Part shown: one piece after another, positions 1 to 9,222 of the stretch
Layout of the letters: each line of letters starts with the position of its first letter
Numbering within the stretch: the stretch's first letter is position 1
Virus record (IMG/VR): IMGVR_UViG_3300020185_004577
Span: 19,145-83,144 of that record
Length of the DNA stretch: 64,000 nt
Reading direction: 5' to 3' (one strand)
Origin: a virus
The notes under the pieces: generated by a model
What the model saw: only the letters and a program-made list of their open reading frames with translations
What the model was told of the DNA's origin: nothing
Databases searched by the model: none
Position numbers and translations under genes: made by a program

Positions 1-361
1 TCCTTTCTCCGTCAAGACCTTTTCTATTACTTTTTGCTATACTTAAATCTTGACATGGTGAACCACCTATTAGCAAATCTACCTTTCCATTACAAATCTC
101 TAGTATTTTTTTGTAATCTAAAGATTTAACGTCTCCCATTTGAATTATTTCAGGATGATTACTCTTAGACACTTTCATTGCATTAACATCAACCTCTGAG
201 GATATATATAAATTCACTTTTACACCCATTTCTTTTAATGCAACCATAGCACAAGAAGCTCCATCAAATAAACTAACTACATTGATTCCACTATCTTCTT
301 TTGATTTAAAACCAATTATTGATATTAATATTTTAAATATTTTATTAAGCTTACTCATCAT
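1..361 (-). CDS. DNMT3-like DNA (cytosine-5) methyltransferase, N-terminal part (cut by window edge)
   Basis: The open frame starts at ATG 361 (or 358) and runs off the left edge, giving 120 residues. It shows the SAM-binding motif I (SLFDGAS, about residues 30-36), an acidic motif II (SE near 55) and the catalytic PCQ loop in GGSPCQDLS, with Cys103 as nucleophile. These define a C5 cytosine methyltransferase. The spacing and the wording around PCQ (GGSPCxDLS followed by NRKGL) resemble eukaryotic DNMT3 more than Dcm or HhaI; phage members of this type are known. It follows the NAD gene upstream by 8 bases and is probably cotranscribed with the NAD genes. The likely role is self-methylation against host restriction, which is inference. 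The target-recognition region lies outside the window. Confidence 0.85.
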   Translation of the reverse strand, partial: MMSKLNKIFKILISIIGFKSKEDSGINVVSLFDGASCAMVALKEMGVKVNLYISSEVDVNAMKVSKSNHPEIIQMGDVKSLDYKKILEICNGKVDLLIGGSPCQDLSIAKSNRKGLDGER

Positions 362-380
362 TTATTTATTTATTTATTTA
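361..380. repeat. (TTTA)5 tetranucleotide repeat at a gene junction
   Basis: Five perfect TTTA units sit between the stop of the NMNAT fusion gene (370-372 lies inside the repeat) and the methyltransferase start at 361/358. On the coding strand this reads as TAAA units directly before ATG. A change in unit number would alter only the spacing, because every frame meets a TAA inside the repeat. Confidence 0.8.
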
Positions 381-1434
381 AATTTATTTTTTTTTTTGTT
401 TTGTAAAACTGTTTTTGCTCTAACAAATGTAAACATTCTTCTGGGACTATGTACTTCAGTTTGTCAATCCCATTTTCCTCTCTTAAAATTTGCCTTACCT
501 TAGAAGAGGATATATTTGTCTCTAGCAATCCTTCTATCTTTTTTATATTTTTGTTGATAGACTCAAATCTAACAACTTTATTTATATCATTCATATGAGC
601 ACCACCTCTTTCATAGTAAAATATAGGAAAATTATCTTCTATGTATTGTGAAGACTTTAAATTACCTATATCATACAAGTAATCTGCGCCCATAATTAAA
701 GAAAATTTGTAATCTTTATATTTTGCACTTATCTTTAGTAGAGATTCAGCAACAGAATTATTTTCATCGTTTTTATAATCCAATTTTGCTAATTTAAAAT
801 AAGGATTATCAAGTATAGCATTTTTCAAAAGTAAAATTCTACTTTTTAAACTTAACAACTCTTCACTCTTGTGATTCAAGTCATATCCTTCGTCAGAAAA
901 TAAAAACCAAACTTCATCAAAGTTATAACTATTGACAACTGTATTTGCAACAATTAAATGAGCATTATGTACTGGGTTAAATGAACCTATAAATAGACCT
1001 ATATTAGATGTTTTTTTGCTATTTTTATTACTTAAGCCCTTTATCATTACTATGTCCCTTTCTAGTTGCTGCAATATTTTAGCCTTTTTTTGCTTTAAAT
1101 CCCTTATGGAATAAGATGCTTTATTTGAAACTAATTTGCTTACTAGAAATTTAGAATTTATATTGTTAAATTTCTCAATATACTTTTTGTTAGACTCATA
1201 TAATTCATCATGCTTTTTAATTGAACTTATTATCGTAGCATGGTCTCTTCCTCCCAAAATGTTTCCAATATCACGCAAGCTAACTTTAAAGTTAGACTTT
1301 ATTATAACTGCAAAAACTCTTCTAGCATCAGCATAATCTGGCTTTCTGCTTTTTGAAATAACATCCTCTTTGGAAAGCCCAGTTTCTTTTGCAATTATGG
1401 AAAATAATAAATTTTTCTCTTTATTTGTAAGCAT
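370..1434 (-). CDS. DnaA domain IV fused to nicotinamide/nicotinate mononucleotide adenylyltransferase
   Basis: The protein has 354 residues and two recognisable parts. Residues about 8-90 match DnaA domain IV, the helix-turn-helix that reads DnaA boxes, including the signature GGRDHAT at 61-67. After a lysine-rich linker, residues 145-350 form a nucleotidyltransferase of the NadD/NadM type: GSFNPVHNAH at 150-159 is the (H/T)xxH ATP-binding motif and SSSKVR near the end is the ISSTxxR-like motif. NMNAT joins NMN or NaMN to AMP from ATP, yielding NAD(+) or its deamido form. It follows the NAMPT-like and PRPP synthetase-like genes, so it would be the last step of a nicotinamide-to-NAD pathway. 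The fusion is unusual. It recalls NadR, in which a DNA-binding repressor domain precedes NMNAT, but the DNA-binding fold here is DnaA-like. Whether the N-terminus regulates transcription or binds an origin is unknown. Confidence 0.87.
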   Translation of the reverse strand: MLTNKEKNLLFSIIAKETGLSKEDVISKSRKPDYADARRVFAVIIKSNFKVSLRDIGNILGGRDHATIISSIKKHDELYESNKKYIEKFNNINSKFLVSKLVSNKASYSIRDLKQKKAKILQQLERDIVMIKGLSNKNSKKTSNIGLFIGSFNPVHNAHLIVANTVVNSYNFDEVWFLFSDEGYDLNHKSEELLSLKSRILLLKNAILDNPYFKLAKLDYKNDENNSVAESLLKISAKYKDYKFSLIMGADYLYDIGNLKSSQYIEDNFPIFYYERGGAHMNDINKVVRFESINKNIKKIEGLLETNISSSKVRQILREENGIDKLKYIVPEECLHLLEQKQFYKTKKKINLNK

Positions 1435-1495
1435 TTATTTTTTGTTAATTGAGCTCCATACATAATGGTTTTCTCATTTTTTTATAATTAAACAA

Positions 1496-3007
1496 TTATA
1501 GGGAAACCACAAAAGTAAATGGTTTTTTAGAGTTTTGTTTATTAATTAACTCTCTAATTTCACCAATTGTTGTTGTTTTGTAAAATTTACCATCTTTGTA
1601 GATAGTGCCCAAAAGACCACACCCCTCTTCTTCAACAGTACACTGGTCTTTTAGTTTAATTTTACCTTCAGAATCTTGATAAATATGCAAATAACCTTTA
1701 GCGGATTTTTTTACACCATCATCAGTTATTGGGTCTTTAAAAATATCTCTAGACTCGCCATTAACAACAACGTGAGTGGCTTTAACTGCGCCACCCTGGC
1801 TATCTCTAGTTGCATAGCCCATTGAATATGAGCCAATGCCTAACACAACATTTGTAGACGCAAAACCTTTAGCTTCTAGTCTCACACAAATATCTTCAGC
1901 CCTTTCTAAAGTTATACTGTCTCCGTATATTGCTCCAATATGAGAGTCTAAAACCTTATAACCTTGAGAGTTGATAGTTCCTCCAAAAACATCCCAAAGA
2001 AGCTCAATAACACCTTTTGAAACAGCTTCTTCAACAGAAGTTGTAGCATCGTCTGTATAAAACAAATCAATACCACACAATATGTCAACAGGGTCTCCAG
2101 AATCAGGCCTAATAACTAACTTACCATCCCTATTCAAAATATCATCTTTAAGCTCGGTAATAAACTCGGTACAAACTTTCCACAAATCAAAAGAATCAGA
2201 AACAACTGAAAGTATACCAGTTGGATATTGCTTCATCAACCTTCTAAATGCGTTAATTTCATCTTCTTGTCCATATGCAGTCATTACTGCATGCTCAGAA
2301 GCTGGCACACTGAAGCCTATGTCTTTTGAATTGTAATAATGTTCTGCCGCTTGCAAGCAAGGTATGGTGTCTGTTCCACAAAAAGATGTTAAAAAACCTA
2401 AACCAGAACTAATTGCAGACTCTGGGTGCTGCATTCCTCTAAATGAAAAATCATGACCTTGAAAATCAACAAAAGCTAAATTTTCAGCATCAGTTTTCAT
2501 AGCGTGTTTTACCAATATTTGCTTATAAGCATAAGCCAAGGATGCTGAATGCAATGGTTTCCACAATAAAGAAGAAATCATAGTTTCTAAAAAGTTAGGT
2601 AACCAAAAAAAGTCTTTATGCGTGTTTTTTACAGTGAAAAATGGGACTTTTTCATCTATCACAGTTCCTTCTGGCAAAGACTTTACTTGTATAGGTAAAT
2701 ATCCCAAATCATGTAATGATTCAAAGTGAGAAACATCATAATCTGAGCCCAAGTAAGAAGAGAGAAAATCCTTAGCCTCTCCTACAACCTCACTTTTGGG
2801 TCTATTGAAGAAATTTTCATTATATAATTCTTCTATTTTTTGTATAGTATATTGAACACCAAAAACAACTACTTTTTTAGCCTGTTCAGGCATGTATTTT
2901 ACACTTCTAGGAGTAAAGTTTGAATAGACTTCTGTGGTTCCCTCTGGATACATTCTATGGTGACTAGTCTTGTAACCATCTGTCATTAATAGTGGATTAT
3001 TTTTCAT
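1496..3007 (-). CDS. nadV: Nicotinamide phosphoribosyltransferase (NAMPT/NadV) family
   Basis: This 503-residue protein matches full-length NAMPT, which condenses nicotinamide with PRPP to NMN. Active-site positions known from human NAMPT can be matched in order: TDGYK (Asp10, Tyr12), SFRGM (Arg190), GTDT (Asp213), PASEH (His239) and RPDSGDP (Arg300, Asp302). Length and motif spacing are normal for the family. It starts 11 bases after the stop of the PRPP synthetase-like gene, so the two are coupled, and it precedes the NMNAT fusion. In phages such enzymes belong to NAD+ reconstitution routes that counter NAD-depleting defences. A related family member (Namat of the NARP1 pathway) uses ADP-ribose pyrophosphate instead of PRPP; sequence alone does not settle the substrate, but an NMNAT next door favours ordinary NMN synthesis. 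Confidence 0.9.
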   Translation of the reverse strand: MKNNPLLMTDGYKTSHHRMYPEGTTEVYSNFTPRSVKYMPEQAKKVVVFGVQYTIQKIEELYNENFFNRPKSEVVGEAKDFLSSYLGSDYDVSHFESLHDLGYLPIQVKSLPEGTVIDEKVPFFTVKNTHKDFFWLPNFLETMISSLLWKPLHSASLAYAYKQILVKHAMKTDAENLAFVDFQGHDFSFRGMQHPESAISSGLGFLTSFCGTDTIPCLQAAEHYYNSKDIGFSVPASEHAVMTAYGQEDEINAFRRLMKQYPTGILSVVSDSFDLWKVCTEFITELKDDILNRDGKLVIRPDSGDPVDILCGIDLFYTDDATTSVEEAVSKGVIELLWDVFGGTINSQGYKVLDSHIGAIYGDSITLERAEDICVRLEAKGFASTNVVLGIGSYSMGYATRDSQGGAVKATHVVVNGESRDIFKDPITDDGVKKSAKGYLHIYQDSEGKIKLKDQCTVEEEGCGLLGTIYKDGKFYKTTTIGEIRELINKQNSKKPFTFVVSL

Positions 3008-3018
3008 TTTTATAGATT

Positions 3019-3933
3019 TTAATTATTATTATTTTTTATCTTAGGTAAATTGCCTTTTCCAATTATGAATATATCATATTGATTTAATTGATTATGCAAT
3101 GGAAACTGATTAACACTATTTGTTGTATATATTTCATCTATGTGTTCAAAAATTGTATCAAGCCCTTTAGAGAATATTCCATGCGTGATAACTAAAGCTA
3201 TTTTTGAGTTTTTGCCATAATCTCTTCTGATAACTTTAGCTAATTCTATAAAAGTTCTACCTCCATCACATATATCGTCCACTATTACAAATGTTTTATT
3301 TTCTGCATTATCAACCTCGCCACTAATTGATGTGTGAGTGATGTTGCCTTTTAGGTCTCTATTTTTAGAGCCTATTATCATATTCTTAATGTCAAATTTT
3401 TGTTGTATTTTGAAAACCTTTTTAAGCGCTCCAGCATCAGGCGATACTAATACTATTCCATCTTTAGCATTGTCAATATTTCTTAAAGCTTGATTAAATA
3501 AATATTGATTATCTCTAGATTCAAAGTTATTTATACAAGCCTCCAAAACATCTGAATGTGGGTCTAAGACTGTAACTTTTTCAAAGTTTTGTGAATTAAG
3601 TATTGGTGCTATAACTGTTTTAATATAATTGATTCCACCCTCTTCAAACTTTCTATCACTTCTACCACCAATACAATAAGGTATATATAATCTAACTTTT
3701 TTTACGCCAATTTCTTTTAAACACTGATTGGCACACACAATTAACTCTAAGTCCTTAAAACTGTTTAGTCTTGATTTAATTGTAATACCTTGGCTGTTGT
3801 TTTTTAGAGAATCAAAAGTAGAATATCCTTTCTCAACAATTTTAAGAGTTTGTTGTCCGTCTGGGAATTTTGAAATCTCATATCCACAAGAAAGTTGGTC
3901 ATTTGAGTCTACTAAGTTTAATGTTTCAGCCAT
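3019..3933 (-). CDS. prs: Ribose-phosphate pyrophosphokinase (PRPP synthetase) family
   Basis: This 304-residue protein has the two-domain phosphoribosyltransferase layout of PRPP synthetase. FPDG (23-26) opens the first domain, PYCIGGRSDR (85-94) corresponds to the ATP-contacting PYxxxxRQDR segment, DPHSD (124-128) replaces the usual DLHAxQ, SPDAG (164-168) is the second-domain loop, and DDICDGGRT (219-227) is the ribose-5-phosphate/PRPP loop (usually DDxxDTGGT). The deviations suggest a divergent phage branch. One such branch, Adps of NARP1, pyrophosphorylates ADP-ribose; that alternative cannot be excluded. It is first in the NAD operon, with a host-type promoter about 17 bases before its ATG, and would supply the co-substrate for the NAMPT-like enzyme. 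Confidence 0.85.
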   Translation of the reverse strand: MAETLNLVDSNDQLSCGYEISKFPDGQQTLKIVEKGYSTFDSLKNNSQGITIKSRLNSFKDLELIVCANQCLKEIGVKKVRLYIPYCIGGRSDRKFEEGGINYIKTVIAPILNSQNFEKVTVLDPHSDVLEACINNFESRDNQYLFNQALRNIDNAKDGIVLVSPDAGALKKVFKIQQKFDIKNMIIGSKNRDLKGNITHTSISGEVDNAENKTFVIVDDICDGGRTFIELAKVIRRDYGKNSKIALVITHGIFSKGLDTIFEHIDEIYTTNSVNQFPLHNQLNQYDIFIIGKGNLPKIKNNNN

Positions 3934-3949
3934 AATTGTTTTATATACT

Positions 3950-3981
3950 CAAATTTAAAGATAAATTAAAAGAATAGCAAA
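3950..3981 (-). promoter_or_regulatory. Bacteroidota-type promoter for the NAD operon
   Basis: On the minus strand TTTG (3981-3978) is followed after 20 bases by TAAATTTG (3957-3950), fitting the TTG/TAnnTTTG consensus of Bacteroidota housekeeping promoters. Transcription would start about 10 bases before the prs ATG at 3933. Confidence 0.5.
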
Positions 3982-7359: not shown

Positions 7360-8226
7360 TTAACTCAAATGTTGCTTTAATATATTACTTCTACTCCTAT
7401 GTCTCAAAACCTTTATGGCAGAATCTTTTATTTGACGAACTCTCTCTCTTGTTAATCCAAAATATTCACCCACTTCTTCGAGTGTCATCTTTGGATATCC
7501 CATTATTCCGTAATACATACAAACAACCTCTCTCTGTCTAGGCTGTATTGTTTTAAGTGTTGAAGATAAATCTTGATGTAAAGAGTCTGAGGCCACACTT
7601 ATATCCACATCATTCATCTCTCCTTCTGAAATTTTATCATACAAACTATAACCTTCATCATCAGTTGACAGAGGAGCGTCTAAAGATGCTTGAGGCTGCG
7701 AGGAACGTAATAATCTAGATATTTTCACTACATCCTCTTGCATTATTTCAGCTATCTCTTCCTCTGTAGGCTCTCTTTGATTTCTTTGTTCAAAATCTCT
7801 AGACTCTTGCTTTAACTTATAATAAGTACTGATTTGATTTGTAGGAAGCCTAACCATTCTAGAATTATTTGCCAAAGCTTCTAGTATAGATTGTCTAATC
7901 CACCATACAGCATATGATATAAATTTAAAACCCCTTGTTTGGTCAAATCTTTCGGCAGCCTTTATTAAGCCATAATTACCTTCATTTACTAAATCTTCAA
8001 AATTTATACCCTTACCCTGATATTGTTTTGCAACACTTATAACAAATCTTAAATTGCCAGTAATTAACTTTTCTCTAGACCTTATATTACCTGCTTGTGA
8101 CTCGATGGCTAACTTATGCTCTTCTTCTTCTGTTAGTTGTTTGATTTTATTTATTTCATTTAAATATGACTTTATGGAATCAGAATCTCTATTCGTTATT
8201 TTATTAGTTATTTTCAGTTGCCTCAT
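7360..8226 (-). CDS. RpoD-like sigma-70 factor (first copy)
   Basis: This 288-residue protein opens with MRQLKI like Bacteroidota RpoD, which also lacks region 1.1. Region 2 (about 52-122) contains FVISVAKQY, DLVNEGNYGLIKAAERFD and GFKFISYAVWWIRQ, the promoter-melting and -10-reading helices. Region 3 spans about 123-185. Region 4 ends with the helix-turn-helix MTLEEVGEYFGLTRERVRQI (about 248-267). All regions are complete, so it should bind core RNA polymerase and read both promoter elements. It has a good host-type promoter just upstream. Phages usually carry short divergent sigma factors; a full housekeeping-type copy, paired with a second one next door, is unusual. It may redirect the host polymerase to phage middle or late promoters. 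Confidence 0.93.
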   Translation of the reverse strand: MRQLKITNKITNRDSDSIKSYLNEINKIKQLTEEEEHKLAIESQAGNIRSREKLITGNLRFVISVAKQYQGKGINFEDLVNEGNYGLIKAAERFDQTRGFKFISYAVWWIRQSILEALANNSRMVRLPTNQISTYYKLKQESRDFEQRNQREPTEEEIAEIMQEDVVKISRLLRSSQPQASLDAPLSTDDEGYSLYDKISEGEMNDVDISVASDSLHQDLSSTLKTIQPRQREVVCMYYGIMGYPKMTLEEVGEYFGLTRERVRQIKDSAIKVLRHRSRSNILKQHLS

Positions 8227-8358: not shown

Positions 8359-9222
8359 TTATAGATATTTTATGAGCAAATCTTTTGTTGAAGTGTTTTC
8401 TAACAACTTTTTCTCAGCCTTTCTTGCAATTTGCCTAATCCTCTCATTGCTATACCCTAGTTTTCTAGCAATTTCCTCTTTAGAATGCGCTTGACAATCT
8501 ATGCCATAAGTGTACCTAATGACTAAAGTTTCATTGTTCGTAAGTATTTCAAATGCTCTGTACATATCTTGTTTTAAAGAATCGTCTAACAATGAAGAGT
8601 CTGGCTTGCCCAAGCTATCATCTTCTATTAAATTCACTAAAGTTGAAGAGTTTTCATCAGAACCTACTTTTGCATCTAAAGATGAATGAAAAGAACTAGC
8701 TTGCTGTAGAAGCTTACCAGATTCAGCGTCTATATCCATATATTCACAAACTTCGAATTCTGTTGGCTCTCTTTCTAAAACTTGCTGCAAGTGCTGTACG
8801 GCTCTTATATATTTCCCAGCTTCTAAATTTTTATTAGAAGGAACTTTTATCATTCTCTTCTTTTCAGATATGGCTTGTATTATAGTTTGTCTAATCCACC
8901 AAACCGCAAAAGATATAAATTTAAAACCTCTAGTTCCATCGAATCTTTCGGCAGCCTTTATGAGTCCCAAATTACCTTCATTTATCAAATCGGCTAATGG
9001 CAATCCTGTATTTTGGTATTTTTTAGCAACACTAATTACGAATTTTAAATTTGATTGAACCAATTCTTTTAAAGCCTCTTCGTCACCTTCTTGAATCAAT
9101 TTAGAAAGCTCAAATTCTCTTTCCGGGGTTATGGAATCAAATTTATTTACATCCGTAAAGTATTGTTCTATTGATTTTTCAGTTCTGTTTGTAAGGCTTT
9201 GTTGAATTTTTAATTGTCTCAT
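8359..9222 (-). CDS. RpoD-like sigma-70 factor (second, divergent copy)
   Basis: This 287-residue paralogue of the adjacent sigma factor shares the MRQLKI start and a well-kept region 2 (LKFVISVAKKYQ, DLINEGNLGLIKAAERFD, GFKFISFAVWWIRQ). Region 3 and especially region 4 differ: the helix-turn-helix reads SKEEIARKLGYSNERIRQIA, and the segment before it has lost the usual ERE pattern, so -35 recognition probably differs. It has its own terminator. Upstream, TTG-N18-TACGTTTA (9279-9251) is a degenerate host-type promoter. A plausible division of labour is that this copy reads the TATTTATA box found before structural genes; that is inference and could equally apply to the other copy. Confidence 0.92.
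   Translation of the reverse strand: MRQLKIQQSLTNRTEKSIEQYFTDVNKFDSITPEREFELSKLIQEGDEEALKELVQSNLKFVISVAKKYQNTGLPLADLINEGNLGLIKAAERFDGTRGFKFISFAVWWIRQTIIQAISEKKRMIKVPSNKNLEAGKYIRAVQHLQQVLEREPTEFEVCEYMDIDAESGKLLQQASSFHSSLDAKVGSDENSSTLVNLIEDDSLGKPDSSLLDDSLKQDMYRAFEILTNNETLVIRYTYGIDCQAHSKEEIARKLGYSNERIRQIARKAEKKLLENTSTKDLLIKYL

Follow-up and report, generated by a model that had tools for sequence, protein, structure and literature searches.

A DnaA domain IV-NadD fusion protein encoded beside a candidate Adps and Namat pair in two phage contigs

The window, which is the whole 64,000-nucleotide stretch of DNA that was analysed, corresponds to positions 19145-83144 of an 83,144-base IMG/VR record (IMGVR_UViG_3300020185_004577). 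Its open reading frames include four adjoining genes on the minus strand, in the order Prs-like, NAMPT-like, NMNAT-like and C5 DNA methyltransferase, and the identical order is found in a second phage contig, IMGVR_UViG_3300024273_002055 (L003). The gene run described in the initial annotation is borne out: these are real, adjoining genes on a single strand, with minus-strand open reading frames at 3019-3933, 1496-3007 and 370-1434 and the methyltransferase from 361; all parts of this locus described below lie on the same strand. A Bacteroidota-type promoter, TTTG-N20-TAAATTTG, is located 16 nt upstream of the start codon of the Prs-like gene (3950..3981) and is the same letter for letter in the second contig. 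We take this form to be that of Bacteroidota promoters. Sites of the form TTTG-N18-21-TAnnTTTG number 12 in the contig, against a mean of 5.2 over 30 simulated sequences, none of which had more than 9, and because of this excess the earlier description of the element as a host-type promoter is plausible.

Two sigma-70-type factors, both starting MRQLKI, are encoded side by side on the minus strand (7360-8226 and 8359-9222), and Flavobacterium phages are found among the relatives of the phage's terminase. As these two observations agree with the promoter form, we infer a Bacteroidota host. In the same phage, genes for DnaJ, a ClpP-like protease and a ClpA/ClpB-like AAA+ protein lie near one another (L002:13080-17568).

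The Prs-like protein (304 aa, 3019..3933) matches PHROG 619 (2.2e-65) and scores 101 bits against the TIGR01251 Prs model, under the 113-bit cut-off. In the tree that the initial annotation had proposed as a check, it clusters with sequences that are paired with Namat-type proteins, among them SPbetaL1 Adps and those of Felixounavirus, and away from E. coli-type Prs, although the solved Prs 4twb is placed between the two groups and the deep nodes are weak (e.g. 0.22). The unusual motifs pointed out earlier, DPHSD and DDICDGGRT, are present. DDICDGGRTF (residues 219-228, 3250..3279), which stands where Prs has the phosphate loop DDMIDTGGTL, is identical in the Felixounavirus Alf5 partner, and the segments DPHSDV, SPDAGALKK, DDICDGGRTF and THGIFSKG are wholly or mostly common to Alf5, whereas the E. 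coli Prs counterparts differ (DLHAEQ, SPDIGGVVR and DDMIDTGGTL). Given the Prs score under the cut-off, the grouping with Namat partners and the shared motifs, the protein is best read as Adps, the ADP-ribose pyrophosphokinase of NARP1, though its identity to the experimentally tested SPbetaL1 Adps is only 31%. The earlier aside that its substrate could be ADP-ribose is supported by the same tree grouping and by the altered phosphate-loop motifs.

For the NAMPT-like protein (503 aa, 1496..3007), the best solved-structure matches are 9w5x and 9w5w, whose sequence is identical to that of the SPbetaL1 protein, and SPbetaL1 is the source of the crystallised Namat, nicotinamide ADP-ribose transferase (PMC12774641). 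Identity is 51% to SPbetaL1 Namat, compared with 34% to the Nampt of Xanthomonas (Xcc) and 33% to human Nampt. According to the published definition of the selectivity clamp, the selectivity-clamp loop (SCL) has Arg, Lys or Tyr as its third residue, and its fourth residue stacks if it is Lys or Tyr (PMC12774641). In the NAMPT-like protein, the SCL is TPRSVKYM (2891..2914), in which K37 aligns to R40 of SPbetaL1 and is followed by Y38, and the selectivity-clamp helix (SCH) motif GSYSMGYATRD (residues 392-402, 1802..1834) carries the defining aromatics (PMC12774641) as Tyr and Tyr at motif positions 3 and 7. These clamp residues are shared with nearly all Namat-type relatives compared, while the aromatic pair is absent from the Nampts of human, Xcc and phages Bajun, Karma, Margaery and D490. 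The inner positions of the SCH read SMG, in place of the TYQ of most Namats. In the corresponding tree, the protein and SPbetaL1 Namat group together, and a long branch of 1.24 substitutions per site separates them from the Nampts of human, Xcc, Bajun, Karma, Margaery and D490; the phylogeny proposed earlier thus speaks for the Namat alternative and against Nampt. As Namat specificity residues (K37-Y38 and GSYSMGYATRD) are present instead of Nampt features, the protein is best called a Namat with a predicted full adenine-binding selectivity clamp.

Counted singly, whatever their neighbours, genes with NAMPT-like matches occur in 1,939 of 50,697 phage records, true Nampts included, and those with Prs-like matches in 1,433 of the same records. 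As read here, the NAMPT-like gene of an ICP1 isolate (L105, 2971-4467) is interrupted early on by an in-frame stop, and its annotation in the record is shorter, with a start at 3148.

The two core genes differ in their closest relatives. The Adps gene (3019-3933) is 82% identical to its counterparts in L084 and L085, its closest relatives, and 74% identical to that of the second phage (L003:3542-4471); the NAMPT-like gene beside it is nearer to that of L003 (89%) than to those of L084 and L085 (58%). In L084 and L085, the Prs-like genes pair with an undoubted Namat-type protein of a different lineage, with the motif GSYTYQYNTRD, which also favours the Adps reading. Furthermore, synonymous divergence from L003 is greater in the Adps gene than in the neighbouring NAMPT-like and fusion genes. 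In combination, the pairing of the relatives with another Namat lineage and the higher synonymous divergence suggest that the Adps gene was likely exchanged by recombination.

The third gene, previously described as NMNAT-like, does encode an adenylyltransferase, but one of the NadD type, and the earlier description missed its fusion to domain IV of DnaA. Matches to PF08299 (2.9e-16) and PF01467 (2e-13) lie in one open reading frame of 354 aa (370..1434). The DnaA domain IV spans residues 12-74 (1213..1401), with the signature GGRDHAT at 61-67 and a PF08299 (Bac_DnaA_C) score of 59.7 bits against a cut-off of 31.5, and the NadD-type domain spans residues 145-344 (403..1002), with GSFNPVHNAH, GAD and ISSSKVR kept. 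The second phage encodes a fusion of the same architecture with 84% identity, and between the two, dN/dS is 0.08 in DnaA domain IV, 0.05 in the linker and 0.09 in the NadD domain; the fusion protein is under purifying selection along its whole length. An assembly artefact is ruled out by the recurrence of the fusion in a second independent assembly with purifying selection throughout. In an AlphaFold2 model, pLDDT averages 64.2, with some segments of the NadD core at about 84, low values in the linker and low to moderate values in DnaA domain IV, and Foldseek matched the model to NadD of B. anthracis and B. subtilis. Beyond these two viruses, no DnaA domain IV-NadD fusion was found in searches of phages, plasmids and IMG/VR contigs and in one GTDB scan, of which those based on patterns extend chiefly to close relatives; the sole match of the GTDB scan with the fusion was a NadD in a Clostridia genome. 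Of 27 related contigs, 20 have PF01467 matches, many of which sit inside larger proteins. The possibility that an adenylyltransferase regularly accompanies NARP1 was rejected, as the three PF01467 proteins that were read (L124, L125 and L133) are not NadD and many of the matches belong to larger proteins.

The NadD domain resembles bacterial NadD, the NaMN adenylyltransferase, in its fold and in keeping the HxxH, GAD and SSSxxR motifs; it differs in the DnaA domain IV at its N-terminus and in the residue after GAD. In NadD, the aromatic residue at this position stacks on the pyridine ring. Among seven compared NadDs, it is Trp in six and Phe in L136, whereas it is Leu259 in the fusion and also Leu in L003. 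In addition, no NadE was found in the contigs, which may be incomplete, while NadE is encoded in all four NadD-bearing viral contigs (L135:680-5782, L136:934-5444, L137:2995-4381 and L138:661-3235). Because Leu replaces the aromatic and NadE was found in those four contigs but not here, the fusion is unlikely to serve a Preiss-Handler route, and NMN is a possible substrate. Three of the four contigs with NadD and NadE (L135, L136 and L138) also encode a nicotinate phosphoribosyltransferase; L135 has an ADP-ribose diphosphatase-like Nudix gene as well, and in L138 NadD and NadE are fused. These Preiss-Handler contigs (L135-L138) could represent an additional type of NAD+ pathway in phages.

With respect to the two core enzymes, the locus shares with NARP1 of SPbetaL1, Bas63 and DyoEdafos the Adps and Namat gene pair, the SPbetaL1 gene order, the Namat clamp residues and the Adps-type motifs, and differs in the fusion and C5 methyltransferase genes that follow and in its SCH (GSYSMGYATRD rather than GSFTYQYNTRD). 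It is very likely, judging from sequence, that the pair is the core of NARP1, a known and widespread system. The initial annotation had proposed NAD+ reconstitution against NAD-destroying defences, and the Adps and Namat features place it in the right field. TIR/SIR2-type NADase defences would release ADP-ribose and nicotinamide; Adps (3019-3933) would pyrophosphorylate ADP-ribose to ADPR-PP, and Namat (1496-3007) would join ADPR-PP and nicotinamide to form NAD+, as predicted from homology and specificity residues, with experiments on relatives only. NARP1 relatives can save cells or phages exposed to NADase defences (PMC12774641; PMC13232231). In two relatives, genes near the pair fit with a supply of ADP-ribose: an ADP-ribosylglycohydrolase gene sits between the NAMPT-like and Prs-like genes of one (L064:7313-8062), and a Macro-domain gene lies downstream of the pair in the other (L062:8129-9125). 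The latter region also holds a weak NMNAT-like open reading frame (phmmer 3.7e-6 to Bajun NMNAT), which has no Pfam match.

The main route proposed earlier, from ribose-5-phosphate through PRPP and NMN to NAD+ by three enzymes, is not favoured, since both core proteins have Adps and Namat features, and Adps and Namat yield NAD+ without an adenylyltransferase. Such canonical salvage (Prs, Nampt and NMNAT, that is, NARP2 with a PRPP supply) would account for the presence of all three enzyme folds in pathway order, and phages with Nampt and NMNAT exist. Furthermore, SPbetaL1 Namat also makes NMN from PRPP in vitro (PMC12774641), which would make an adenylyltransferase useful, and as no NadE was found, the NadD domain is not obviously a Preiss-Handler enzyme. 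Against this, the core enzymes lack Prs and Nampt features, the adenylyltransferase has the NadD fold with NaMN enzymes as its closest solved relatives, and it is absent from nearly all other phages of the clade that were examined. The clamp residues and the Prs-like and NAMPT-like trees rule out the PRPP and NMN route as the main reading, and canonical salvage is distinctly unlikely overall. Of the earlier suggestion that the locus combines elements of NARP1 and NARP2, the presence of an adenylyltransferase stands. As in Brevundimonas phage Bajun and Vibrio phages phiGrn1 and phiSt2, a NAMPT-like and a nucleotide adenylyltransferase gene occur together, but the Namat clamp is absent in Bajun, and the neighbouring gene there encodes an NMNAT/Nudix enzyme rather than a NadD-fold protein fused to DnaA domain IV. 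That the operon is a general NAD+ supply for phage metabolism and not a counter-defence is highly improbable: the phage has apparent genes for ribonucleotide reductase subunits, recognised from the starts of open reading frames, but the NARP1 relatives counter NADase defences (PMC12774641; PMC13232231).

In the fusion, a DNA-binding domain would be joined to an adenylyltransferase with intact catalytic motifs. This arrangement resembles NadR, which consists of an HTH repressor, an NMN adenylyltransferase and a ribosylnicotinamide kinase, and differs in having DnaA domain IV in place of the HTH, a NadD-type in place of the NadR-type adenylyltransferase, and no kinase domain. The favoured reading is a possible combination of regulator and enzyme akin to NadR, in which the fusion would adenylate a mononucleotide, NMN (available from PRPP through Namat) in preference to NaMN, and would read the pyridine-nucleotide state while bound to DNA. 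In its full form the proposal is tentative: within a NARP1 operon, the phage would have built a NadR analogue able to sense pyridine nucleotides, with a substrate preference shifted from NaMN to NMN, and through it NAD+ rescue would be tied to the DNA of phage or host. If Namat already makes NAD+, the adenylyltransferase would be redundant, and no operator emerged among DnaA boxes. Exact DnaA boxes are not enriched in the contig (2 versus 1.1 expected) and form no cluster beyond simulation, and the one that precedes the operon shows no conservation; DnaA boxes were thus rejected as operator or origin.

The fusion might instead act in replication or genome targeting, with DnaA domain IV bringing it to origins of the host or the phage, and NadD supplying or sensing NAD(H) locally or serving as a mere scaffold. 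We take R399, R407, P423, D433, H434 and T435 of E. coli DnaA to be DnaA-box contacts. The positions aligned to R399, R407, D433 and H434 are kept, which, like the purifying selection over the whole protein, suits such a factor, but P423 and T435 have other residues at their aligned positions, the contig shows no cluster of DnaA boxes, and the place in a NARP1 operon favours a role in NAD+ metabolism; this alternative is unlikely.

The C5-cytosine DNA methyltransferase gene (PF00145, 3.3e-39) runs off the edge of the window (1..361) and is complete in the upstream stretch L002 (18474-19505, 343 aa). In either phage it is the next gene after the fusion, and nothing beyond this adjacency ties it to NAD+. 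The earlier notion of a combined counter-defence island finds no support beyond co-transcription by position; the methyltransferase probably has a separate job, genome protection, within the same transcription unit.

Taken as a whole, the best explanation, namely a Bacteroidota tailed phage that carries a NARP1 counter-defence operon with an added gene, a NadR-like fusion included, is reasonably probable. The core of NARP1 is already known, and the new part is the fusion, found here in only two viruses. NARP1 is a general phage answer to NAD-depleting immunity, and the locus suggests that Adps moves between phages with different Namat lineages. If a NARP1 operon does hold a DNA-binding adenylyltransferase, NAD+ rescue would be linked to gene regulation or replication, and DnaA domain IV would be a module reused on a metabolic enzyme.
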